This document shows positions 1,264 through 55,761 of a stretch of DNA of 64,000 bases, piece by piece. The notes under the pieces were generated by a model. That model was not told where the DNA came from, searched no databases, and was given only the letters and a program-made list of their open reading frames with translations. Position 1 is the stretch's first letter; each line of letters starts with the position of its first letter. The stretch is taken from assembly GCF_001530125.1 (NCBI RefSeq), contig NZ_LDUG01000036.1:62001-126000 (forward strand). Reading direction: 5' to 3'. The DNA comes from Thiobacillus denitrificans. GTDB taxonomy: Bacteria; Pseudomonadota; Gammaproteobacteria; Burkholderiales; Thiobacillaceae. Both the position numbers and the translations under genes were made by a program.

Positions 1264-1728
1264 TCATTGGTGTGCAACGAAGTCGAGCGGAAAGCGCCGC
1301 CCGGCGAGGTAATCCTGCACGCAGCGCATCACCAGCGGGCTGCGCTGCGGAATTGGACTGGCAGCGAGCTCGCCAGGCGTCAGCCACACAGCGCGCACGA
1401 TGCCGGTATCCAGCGTGCGTTCGGCGTCGAAGCTGCTGACGCTGCAGACATAGGCGAAGCGCAAATAGGTGATGTCGCGCCGCGGGTAGTGGGTGCTGTA
1501 GCAGCCCAGCAATGCGAGCGGCTCGACGTGATGCGCGGTTTCTTCCAGCGCTTCGCGGCGCACCGCGTCTGTCAGCGTTTCGTCGCGCTCCCAGTGGCCG
1601 GCGGGCTGGTTGAGGCGCAGGCCTTCGGCGGTGTGTTCCTCCACCAGCAGGAATTTGCCGTCGCGTTCGACCATGGCGGCGACCACCACGTGCGGGGTCC
1701 ACGGTGTATTCAGGTTTGGCTCAAACAT
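1264..1728 (-). CDS. Nudix hydrolase, NudJ-like
   Basis: A 154-residue Nudix protein. The Nudix box is complete at residues 44-66 (GHWERDETLTDAVRREALEE start), with the metal-binding REALEE core. NudJ-type enzymes hydrolyse nucleoside tri- and diphosphates and thiamine pyrophosphate precursors, and in other proteobacteria lie next to mnmA and rluE, as here. The start codon overlaps the 3' end of the upstream rluE gene by 8 bp, so the two are probably co-transcribed. The exact substrate cannot be read from sequence. Confidence 0.88.
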   Translation of the reverse strand: MFEPNLNTPWTPHVVVAAMVERDGKFLLVEEHTAEGLRLNQPAGHWERDETLTDAVRREALEETAHHVEPLALLGCYSTHYPRRDITYLRFAYVCSVSSFDAERTLDTGIVRAVWLTPGELAASPIPQRSPLVMRCVQDYLAGRRFPLDFVAHQ

Positions 1729-2281: not shown

Positions 2282-2318
2282 AAGAAGCACACATTTTAAC
2301 GTTACCCGAGCTCCCCTC

Positions 2319-3575
<1,257 letters not shown>

Positions 3576-5402: not shown

Positions 5403-5963
5403 ATGAAAATCGCACAGGAACTCCGCGCCGGCAACGTCGTGATGGTTGGTAAAGACCCGATGGTGGTGTTGAAGGCCGAATTCAGCAAGTCCGGCCGCAA
5501 TTCCTCCGTCGTCAAAATGAAACTGAAGAACCTGCTCACCGGTTCAGGCACCGAGAGCGTCTACCGCGCCGACGACAAGTTCGAAGCCGTCAACCTCGAT
5601 CGCAAGGAATGCACCTATTCCTATTTCGCCGATCCGCTGTACGTTTTCATGGATGGCGACTACAACCAGTATGAAATCGAAGCCGACAACCTCGGCGACG
5701 CGCTGAACTACCTCGACGACGGCATGCCGGTCGAAGTGGTGTTCTACGACGGCAAGGCGATCTCGGTCGAGATGCCCACCACCGTCGTCCGCGAAGTCGA
5801 ATACACCGAGCCGGCCGTGCGTGGCGACACCTCCGGCAAGGTGATGAAGCCGGCACGCATCAAGCCCACCGGGTACGAGCTGCCGGTGGCGGCGTTCGTC
5901 GACATCGGCGACATGATCGAGATCGACACCCGCACCAACGAATTCAAGCGCCGCGCCAACTGA
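5403..5963 (+). CDS. efp: Translation elongation factor P
   Basis: EF-P binds the ribosome between the P and E sites and rescues stalling at consecutive prolines. The product is 186 residues with three OB-type beta domains. The loop tip reads SKSGRNSS with arginine at position 32, the residue rhamnosylated by EarP; EF-Ps that use EpmA/B carry lysine here. This agrees with the adjacent earP. A structured 55-bp repeat begins directly at the stop codon, followed by a terminator. Confidence 0.97.
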
Positions 5964-6018
5964 GCGTGGTTGTTGCCGATTTATCGGCTTTACAACCACG
6001 GCCTGCCCCTTGCGGGTG
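5964..6018 (+). repeat. 55-bp structured repeat, copy 1
   Basis: It starts directly after the efp stop codon. Outer arms cgtggttgt and acaaccacg enclose an inner stem gccga/tcggc; a second small hairpin follows (cctgc/gcggg with one G-U pair). A second copy lies at 55707-55761 on the same strand. The two differ at only a few positions, all in the inner stem-loop, and the stem changes are compensatory. It may be a mobile or RNA-structured element. Confidence 0.8.
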
Positions 6019-6122: not shown

Positions 6123-9100
6123 ATGACCGATCCGCGTTTCATCCACCTCCGCCTGCACACCGAATACTCCGTCGCCGATGGCCTGGTGCGGGTGGGCGAG
6201 GCGGTCGGGCGCGCGCGCGAAATGGCCATGCCGGCGCTTGGGCTCTCCGACCTGTCCAACACCTTCGGCTGGGTGAAGTTCTATCGTGCCGCGCGCGGCG
6301 CCGGCATCAAGCCGATCTTCGGCTGCGACGTGTGGGTGACGAATGCCGCCGACCGTAACCGCCCCTCGCGCCTGTTGCTGCTGGTGCAGCACCGCGAGGG
6401 CTATCGCCGCCTGTGCGACCTGCTGACCCGCGCCTATCTTGAAAACCTCCATCGCGGCCGCGCCGAGATTGATCCTGTCTGGCTGCGTGACGGCACCGAC
6501 GGCCTGCTGGCGCTGTCGGGCGGCGACAGCGGCAACGTCGCGCAGGCGCTGCTCGACGACAAGCCCGCCGCCGCGCGCGCCGCCGCCGAAGCCTGGGCCG
6601 CGCTGTTTCCCGGGCGCTATTACCTGGAACTGCAGCGCTTCGGCCAGCCGCAAGCCGAACGCCTGATCGACGGCCTGCTCGATATCGGCGCGGCGCTGAA
6701 CCTGCCGTCGGTGGCCACCCATCCGATCCAGTTCGTTGCGCCGGACGACTTCAAGGCGCACGAGGCGCGCGTCTGCATCGCAGAAGGCATGATGTTGGGC
6801 GACCCACGCCGCCCGCGTCCGTTCACCGCCGAGCAGTATTTCAAAACGCCGGACGAGATGACGGCGCTGTTCGCCGACCTGCCGGAAGCGCTCGCCAACA
6901 GCGTCGAAATCGCCAAGCGCTGCAACCTCACGCTCGAACTCGGCAAGAGCCGCCTGCCCGCCTTTCCGACCCCGGACGGCATGAGTCTCGACGACTACAT
7001 GCGGCAGCGTTCCTTCGAAGGCCTGCATGAACGCATGGCCCACCTCTATCCCGACCCGGACATCCGCGCTGCCAAGCTGCCCGAATACACCAAACGGCTG
7101 GAGTTCGAACTCGGCACCATCATCCAGATGGGCTTTCCCGGCTACTTCCTCATCGTGGCCGACTTCATCAACTGGGCCAAGCACAACGGCGTGCCGGTGG
7201 GGCCGGGGCGCGGCTCCGGCGCAGGTTCGCTGGTGGCCTACAGCCTCAGCATCACCGACCTCGATCCGCTTGCCTACGACCTGCTGTTCGAGCGCTTTTT
7301 GAACCCCGAGCGGGTGTCGATGCCCGACTTCGATATTGACTTTTGTCAGGATGGGCGCGAACGCGTCATCGATTATGTGAAGCAGCGCTACGGCGCCGAG
7401 TCGGTGTCGCAGATCGCGACCTTCGGCACCATGGCGGCCAAGGCGGTGCTGCGCGACGTCGGCCGCGTGCTCGACCTGCCGTACCTCTTCGTCGACAAGT
7501 TCGTCAAGCTGGTGCCCAACGAGTTGGGGATCAGCCTGGCCGAGGCGCGCGAGAAGGAACCGCAGATCGACGAGCGCGCCCGCAGCGAGGAGGAGCTCGC
7601 CGAGCTGCTGCCGCTGGCCGAAAAGCTCGAGGGCATCACCCGCAACGTCGGCATGCACGCGGGCGGGGTGCTGATCGCGCCGGGCCGGCTCACCGACTTC
7701 TGTCCGCTGTACCGCGCCGAAGGCTCGGAATCGATGGTGTCGCAGTTCGACAAGGACGACGTCGAGGCAATCGGCCTGGTCAAGTTCGACTTCCTCGGCC
7801 TGCGCACGCTGACCATCCTGGCCGAGGCGGTGCGCTTCGTGCAGCGTCACGACGACCGTAAGGATTTCCGCCTGGAAGACCTGCCGCTCGACGATCCGGC
7901 GGTGTACCGGCTGTTCGCCGAGGGCAACACCACCGCGGTATTCCAGTCCGAATCGCGCTCGGCCAAGGATCTGGAAAAGAAGCTGAAGGGCGACTGCTTC
8001 GAGGACATCATCGCGCTGATGGCACTCAACCGCCCAGGCCCGCTCGGTTCCGGCATGGTGGACGACTTCATCGCGCGCAAGCAGGGCAAGCAGAAGCCCG
8101 AGTATTTTCATGTTGACCTCGAGCCGGTGCTGAAGTCGACCTACGGCATCATCGTCTACCAGGAACAGGTGATGCTGGTGGCGCAGATCCTGGCCGGCTA
8201 CAGCCTCGGTGCCGCCGACATGCTGCGGCGCGCCATGGGCAAGAAAAAGCCCGAGGAAATGGCCGTGCAGCGGACGATTTTCCTTGAGGGCGCAGCCAGG
8301 CGCGGGGTCGATACCAAGATTGCCGAGCGGCTGTTCGACCTGATGGAGAAGTTTGCCGAATACGGCTTCAACAAGTCGCACTCGGCGGCCTATGCGCTGA
8401 TCGCGTATCACACCGCCTGGCTCAAGGCCTACTACCCGGCCGAGTTCATGGCGGCGACCATGTCGTCTGAAATGTCCGACACCGACAAGGTGCGGGTGTT
8501 CTACGAGGACTGCCGCGCCAACGGGCTGACCATGCTGCCGCCCGACATCAATTCATCCGGCTACCGCTTCGACCCGGTCAGCAAGACCGAAATCCGCTAC
8601 GGCCTCGGCGCGCTCAAGGGCAGCGGCGAGGCGGCGATCGGCGCCATCGTCGCCGAGCGCGAAGCCAACGGCCCCTACCAGGGCCTGTTCGACCTGGCGC
8701 GGCGCGTCGACAAGCGCTACCTCAACCGCCGCGTGCTCGAGGCGCTGGTGAAGGCGGGCGCATTCGACCGCATCAATGCGCACCGCGCCAGCCTGATGGC
8801 CTCGGTCGGTGCGGCGCTGGAAACCGCCGATCACGCGGCGAGGAGCGGCGGCCAGGTCGGTTTGTTCGGCGAAATGCTCGACGGCGGCGAAGACCTGATT
8901 GTCGTGCCCGAGTGGCCCGAACAGGAAAAGCTGCTGCAGGAGAAATCCGCGCTCGGCTATTTCTTCAGCGGCCATCCGTTTACGTCGTATCTGGCCGAAG
9001 TGTCTGGTTTCGCCAAACGACAGCTCGACAGCCTGGAGCCCGCCCGCGAGCTCCAGATGCTGGCCGGCATGGTCGTCTCGCTGCGCACCCAGATGACGCG

Positions 9101-9652: not shown

Positions 9653-9751
9653 AACACTGAAGTCGCCGCAACGGTACTTCGTGTTGTCTCCTCCAATCCT
9701 CCTCCTTTGGTGGATATCTGCCCGGCTCTTTACTGAGCCGGGCATTTTTTT
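9653..9751 (+). ncRNA. Candidate small RNA between dnaE and acyP
   Basis: This stretch of about 100 bases lies between a TTGACA/GATTAT promoter and a strong rho-independent terminator and has no credible ORF. It carries a pyrimidine-rich stretch with two CCTCC-type motifs (ctcctcc and cctcctcc, about 9687-9706), the kind of anti-Shine-Dalgarno segment found in some regulatory RNAs. An alternative is that the terminator simply serves dnaE and the promoter is chance. No known RNA family was recognised. Confidence 0.45.
9720..9751 (+). terminator. Rho-independent terminator
   Basis: A 9-bp perfect stem (gcccggctc/gagccgggc) with a 6-base loop is followed by A and seven T. The T-run is on the plus strand, so it serves dnaE read-through or the small RNA, not the convergent acyP gene. 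Confidence 0.85.
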
Positions 9752-22437: not shown

Positions 22438-22515
<78 letters not shown>

Positions 22516-55600: not shown

Positions 55601-55706
55601 GGCTGAATTCCGGGGGAAGGAAAGTTTAATTGTCGCGCATTCCGGGAGTTGGTGCCCAACGAATGAATGTGGGCTTGATTCGGCTCCACCTCGGCGTCTG
55701 GGTGGT

Positions 55707-55761
55707 GCGTGGTTGTTGACGCTTAAGCGTCTTTACAACCACGGCCTGCCCCTTGCGGGTG
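55707..55761 (+). repeat. 55-bp structured repeat, copy 2
   Basis: Same length, outer arms and 3' hairpin as the copy after efp (5964-6018). The inner stem is gacgc/gcgtc instead of gccga/tcggc, with two compensated pairs. It lies immediately downstream (minus sense) of the orphan antitoxin gene, where a toxin gene would be expected. Confidence 0.8.

Follow-up and report, generated by a model that had tools for sequence, protein, structure and literature searches.

A dispersed 57-nt double hairpin in Thiobacillus denitrificans and its relatives is likely to be a mobile element

Introduction

REPs of the GTAG type—defined, in the part of PMC3733652 drawn on here, as small (20–40 bp) palindromic repeats—and the REPINs occur with RAYT (TnpAREP) and, like the element described below, are short, high-copy and dispersed palindromes. 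Other sections of the same source that bear on our locus describe REP families with degenerate heads and dinucleotide spacers (section 5), REPs lying within palindromes, exemplified by T. roseum GTAG-23 (section 7), and CGTC-tagged REPs, for which it names no known dedicated transposase (PMC3733652). According to the relevant parts of a biochemical account, TnpAREP of E. coli requires GTAG plus a bulge and any change to GTAG abolishes its activity, while the S. maltophilia enzyme barely cut a GCAG substrate (PMC8266576). IS110, IS3 and other insertion-sequence families target REPs, as stated in the portion of PMC1525189 used here.

It is not yet settled how REPs and palindromes of similarly small size move. 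Tiny hairpin elements that are thought to be mobile include the double-hairpin elements of mitochondria and the PATEs derived from IS200/IS605; they inhabit other hosts and are likened to ours by description only. Here, we describe a repeat family that bears on this question, whose unit of insertion is exact, whose empty sites in relatives are clean and whose many independent targets show structural preference and strand bias. As there are also genomes with and without the candidate enzyme, the defined unit and targets render both enzyme and target rule testable. Our literature search, including a term search of the accessible text of PMC3733652 (figures apart), found no account of such a repeat in Thiobacillus or Gallionella.

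Materials and Methods

The window is the whole 64,000-nt stretch of Thiobacillus denitrificans DNA analysed here, and its own genome is a 3.29-Mb draft in 86 contigs. Many element-bearing loci were fetched with a pattern fixing the outer arms and GGCCT, with the inner stem and tail outside the pattern. Thirty unbiased efp loci were fetched by efp similarity; L291, a tenth efp carrier, falls outside these thirty since it was fetched for having the element, and L238, whose pattern match is false, was counted among the empty efp loci.

Results

An earlier note, made from the letters of the window, had described a 55-bp repeat in two copies, one after efp and one at 55707–55761. Both copies are present there, but the unit is two bases longer on its 5′ side, giving a 57-nt element (Table 1). 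The efp product upstream of copy 1 has three EF-P domains, and the gene after it, which has a PHP domain, is read as dnaE; one of the short ORFs beside copy 2 encodes an Unstab_antitox protein. The arms of the two copies account for four of the five exact matches to CGTGGTTGT in the window. Both copies fold far below dinucleotide shuffles (z −4.3 to −4.9, plus strand, as DNA or RNA), using a stretch displaced by one base from the 57-nt unit. Copy 1 has the inner stem GCCGA/TCGGC where copy 2 has GACGC/GCGTC, a C-G to A-T plus an A-T to C-G change, and both changes are paired, just as the note had read them.

Table 1. Positions in the window of the two element copies and of the parts of copy 1
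Feature	Position	Strand	Remarks
Copy 1, 57-nt element (GAGC...GGGTG)	5962..6018	+	immediately at efp end
Copy 2, 57-nt element (GTGC...GGGTG)	55705..55761	+	flanked by two short minus-strand ORFs
efp stop codon TGA	5961..5963	+	T from gene, GA from element
Outer stem, 5′ arm	5965..5973	+	pairs with 5992-6000
Inner stem, 5′ arm (covarying stem)	5975..5979	+	pairs with 5984-5988
Inner stem, 3′ arm	5984..5988	+	pairs with 5975-5979
Outer stem, 3′ arm	5992..6000	+	pairs with 5965-5973
Linker joining both hairpins, columns 40-43	6001..6004	+	invariant in 111/111 distinct copies
Bottom-strand G(T/C/G)AG, here GCAG, read as a REP-like head	6003..6006	-	first two bases within tail stem
Tail hairpin	6005..6017	+	stem 6005-6008 with 6014-6017

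Under a mismatch-tolerant rule, 128 of 177 copies are 57 nt long, 168 begin with GTGC or GAGC and 161 end with GGTG, GGTA, GGGA or GGGG. Of the 57 nt in the insertion unit, which comprises two hairpins, the main hairpin takes up 36; an asymmetric bulge of one base against three separates the outer and inner stems. Across 111 distinct 57-nt copies, the inner stem is paired in 96.8% of cases (80.0% when shuffled), with 79 two-sided changes against a mean of 27.6 and a maximum of 37 in 300 shuffles. For the outer stem, pairing stands at 98.8% and two-sided changes at 10 (shuffle maximum 2); for the tail hairpin, in the register pairing 44–56 through to 47–53, they stand at 98.9% and 27 (maximum 14). 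Shuffles overstate the significance of these figures because the copies are related, and conservation of the arms and linker is partly built in because both the outer arms and GGCCT were set in the fetch pattern. For the tail hairpin, the covarying register was adopted in place of the minimum-energy one, which was 84.7% paired and gained nothing over shuffles. On these 111 copies, the proposal that covariation reflects selection for the folded form is upheld: inner-stem covariation goes well beyond shuffles.

On the bottom strand, GTAG, GCAG or GGAG stands two bases ahead of the bulged hairpin in 110/111 copies (GTAG 50, GCAG 38, GGAG 22, with GAAG in 1). G303, a closed 5.3-Mb genome from another family, has among its inner-stem types GGCGC/GCGCC, GGTGC/GCACC, GCCCC/GGGGC and AGCGC/GCGCT, and 17 of its 19 exact copies, read by eye, are fully paired when T-G is counted as a pair. 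In five loci (L069, L147, L165, L227 and L291) the tail loop is enlarged by a small TGCCCTTCAGGGCA-type hairpin, a hairpin within a hairpin.

Searching the own genome for further units returned 46 blastn matches at E ≤ 0.001 (best non-self E 9.1e-22), including a few that are halves of interrupted copies; of 72 candidates, 40 were scored. The repeat is not a chance recurrence: it has many more copies, with compensatory stem changes among them. Blastn matches occurred in 38/60 genomes: all 36 members of the genus, the own genome included, and 2/24 others. Exact pattern matches were found in 16/399 genomes of the order, representing 10/158 genera and, with rows counted by hand, seven families; the reversed pattern, used as a control, gave none in the same 399 genomes. 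A scan of named genomes found at least 112 stretches with the element, and the names among the 80 matches listed were Thiobacillus, Hydrogenophilales, Sideroxydans, Gallionella, Sulfuriferula, Nitrosomonadales and less specific ones. Phages and plasmids (searched by blastn) and viral contigs (searched with the exact pattern) showed no match. Arrival of the element in G303 by horizontal transfer is suggested because six congeners in the same scan have no exact copies.

Nine of the thirty efp loci carry the element (two with a further copy nested within it and one degenerate), 20 lack it and one ends at a contig border. Without its 57-mer, the window reads GCCAACT-AAATCCGGTG, identical to the empty site of L233, and L216 reads CCAATT-AATACCGG, identical to that of L212. 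Because these relatives show the efp end uninterrupted, the 57-mer is a precise insertion with neither target duplication nor loss. The short efp stretch yields a tree of poor resolution, with which one gain and several are both compatible. L224 and L228, which share the efp site, have GCGG/CCGC outer arms rather than GTGG/CCAC, so that a paired change is seen at a single orthologous position.

The frame upstream of copy 1, that of efp, is open for 200 codons and gains its stop codon from the insertion. The element creates T-GA at 18/64 independent left flanks, and at 10 of the 18 the frame so closed had run for 100 codons or more (in L067 a different frame is the longer one), compared with 198/2000 random TGA.

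Among 161 copies classified by context, 86 were single, 36 lay in REPs, 24 were tandem and 15 nested. In REPs the element enters at ...GCGCCG^CTCCTAC, with the REP hairpin on one side and the GTAG head on the other; L235 has this site uninterrupted. A single composite may be the ancestor of many of the REP-borne copies. Where one copy is nested in another, it follows CTTTA in the bulge of its host. A C-G tail marks 10/10 nested 57-nt copies and 0/24 tandem ones, copies that may share descent.

A palindrome scoring ≥6 spans the junction at 17 of 56 independent single sites, against a mean of 2.33 and a maximum of 7 in 300 flank re-pairings and a rate of 2.6% at 3000 random positions. At scores ≥7 the count is 12/56 (re-pairing mean 0.87, maximum 5) and at ≥8 it is 7/56 (mean 0.39, maximum 4); a smaller, earlier set gave 10/53 at ≥7 (mean 0.92, maximum 5). 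Counted by hand, the junction is closer to the 5′ arm in 15 of the 17. At the other 39 sites no palindrome reaches a score of 6, and the 17 include neither copy from the window. No sequence rule emerged for the target: across 49 independent left flanks, no tetranucleotide is constant. We claim neither a one-base target duplication (base −1 agrees with base 57 in 18/49 cases, with about 14 expected from the margins by hand calculation) nor element-to-flank mutual information (best z of 4.3 among 272 tests).

Orientation within targets, taken over all copies without making them independent, is strongly biased: 29 to 0 in REPs, 11 to 1 in CATTCC palindromes, 6 to 1 in CCCTCCCC palindromes and, by a loose count, 9 to 2 in CCTAC-tailed palindromes. 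On inspection, the single counter-match in the CATTCC set proved to be a REP site, as did that in the CCCTCCCC set. Directions counted within a genome, and not relative to genes, split into 14 forward and 13 reverse.

RAYT hits occur in 15/16 carriers and 233/383 other genomes (Fisher 0.005), and hits above the curated cut-off in 12/16 and 108/383 (2e-4); both comparisons are uncorrected for kinship, and the non-carriers, defined by exact pattern, may hold diverged copies. The association may only mark genomes rich in REPs. Among 92 RAYT/Y1 loci, some overlapping, the element lies near the gene at only two distinct places, and of six loci flagged for a RAYT near the element three are, by eye, chance matches. 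No RAYT hit was found in 4/19 carriers, each 99–100% complete: G004 (21 blastn and 8 exact copies), G023 (5 blastn, 0 exact), G079 (3 exact) and G066 (4 exact). A Y1_Tnp hit is likewise absent from 16/56 genomes of the genus.

As alternative movers, we rejected IS110, which is found in just 6/19 carriers and missing from 13/19, and an autonomous partner: copy pairs 0.3–4.5 kb apart in the fetched loci enclose no evident transposase gene, judged from truncated ORF starts and, for one pair, from full ORFs, rather than by a per-ORF family scan. One such pair in the own genome has a RAYT gene immediately beyond it.

Three transposase genes were seen in passing. L035 encodes at 7294–7770, on the minus strand, a 158-aa REP-associated tyrosine transposase (NF047646, E 3.6e-43) amid REPs, with a REP-borne element on its 3′ side. 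At 1449–1724 (+) in L066 is the own genome's second RAYT gene, apparently truncated, and at 2283–2786 (+) in L065 an intact-looking IS200-type transposase gene, the sole such gene in that genome.

Discussion

The element resembles GTAG REPs in having what reads as a G(N)AG head on one strand, a stem with unpaired bases, like that of E. coli REPs, and paired stem variants. Unlike them, it is a 57-nt unit whose second hairpin overlaps the head, and the second base of that head is variable; it shows clean empty sites, enters the loops of unrelated palindromes and of its own copies, and lacks a regular RAYT neighbour flanked by the same repeat (2 places among 92 loci). CGTC-tagged REPs, to which superfamily we would assign the dRS3-like CATTCC palindromes on their sequence, are also short palindromes in the same genomes, and those palindromes serve as a landing site, with 11 copies of the element inside. 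When insertion sequences enter REPs, the incoming DNA is a full, gene-bearing transposon; here it is a 57-mer. With IS200/IS605-derived elements it shares the lack of target duplication and the subterminal hairpins, but it has no fixed short target at the left flank. Its distinguishing marks are a double hairpin of 57 nt for which empty sites exist, the range of loops that it enters, its own included, and the strand bias.

The element is likely to be mobile and to move as a folded single strand; we infer the single-strand step because it has two hairpins, strand bias and loop targets. Of the two possibilities raised by the earlier note, a hairpin-recognised mobile element has gained support from the empty sites, nested copies and wide spread, while a structured RNA has drawn none specific to it. 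At about even probability, we read the repeat as a non-autonomous, REP-like mobile element of 57 nt, moved as a single strand in trans by a RAYT-type Y1 transposase. The travelling form would be a folded single strand of DNA; acting in trans, a Y1 (HUH) transposase of RAYT type would recognise the bottom-strand G(N)AG-GC-bulged hairpin and join the element to exposed single strands, such as the loops of extruded palindromes, which would account for the target preference and strand bias. The fold would be selected because the enzyme needs it, leaving the inner stem to drift through paired changes. Most copies are probably passengers after insertion, although some give the upstream gene its stop codon, which shows that a mobile hairpin can rebuild the very stop codon that it enters.

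Movement of the RAYT (Y1) type is favoured because the main hairpin, read on the bottom strand, resembles a GTAG-type REP, and RAYT is our leading, if unproven, enzyme candidate. A strict GTAG reading of the GCAG copies is weakened because a GCAG substrate was barely cut in the experiments covered by the cited part of PMC8266576, and the G(N)AG head could be a coincidence, as it overlaps the tail stem. The same mobile double hairpin might instead be moved by an enzyme outside the RAYT family, such as another single-strand or structure-specific recombinase, or by template switching at hairpins during replication; the RAYTs would then merely reflect the abundance of REPs in these genomes. The carriers with no RAYT hit, the want of a regular RAYT neighbour and the preference of targets by structure rather than sequence all fit such a mover; the greater frequency of RAYT hits in carriers, the REP-like head and bulge and the presence of IS110, one tested alternative, in only 6/19 carriers tell against it, and we consider it possible, at rather less than an even chance. 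More tentatively still, and in our view unlikely, the repeat may be a minimal element that chooses targets by shape, its folded single strand entering near the 5′ loop border of other hairpins; the loops so chosen would include those of REPs, other palindromes and its own copies, and the tail hairpin would help to set the target.

Selection of the fold as RNA—a structured RNA or 3′-UTR element acting on mRNA through stability, termination or a small RNA—would be in keeping with the strong RNA fold, the covarying stems, the copies that lie directly 3′ of genes and complete their stop codons, and the paired GCGG/CCGC change at the efp site in L224 and L228. Folding and covariation suit single-stranded DNA as well as RNA, however, and we judge this explanation improbable: the element is missing from 20 of the 30 unbiased efp loci, half of its directions, counted within a genome and not relative to genes, are opposite, and entry into REPs, other palindromes and itself is unexpected for an RNA gene. 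Nor do the copies match any Rfam family at gathering score: the two window matches at that score are on neither copy, and around copy 1 there are weak sub-threshold hits only. A MITE of a DDE transposon would likewise be small, gene-less and dispersed, with inverted arms. The arms here are not terminal, however, and the ends, GWGC and GGGKR, are no inverted repeats; the copy pairs enclose no evident transposase gene, and the usual DDE route is disfavoured because insertions at the empty sites (L233, L212) lack target duplication, all of which makes a MITE highly improbable. A mobile element moving as a folded single strand remains the reading we prefer.

The two Rfam matches in the window concern other features. 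One, at 9685–9751 (+), is to RF02278, a Betaproteobacteria toxic small RNA (57.4 bits against a gathering score of 50), and is by eye unlike the 57-nt element; the other, at 22442–22515 (−), is a tRNA gene (RF00005, 62.4 bits).
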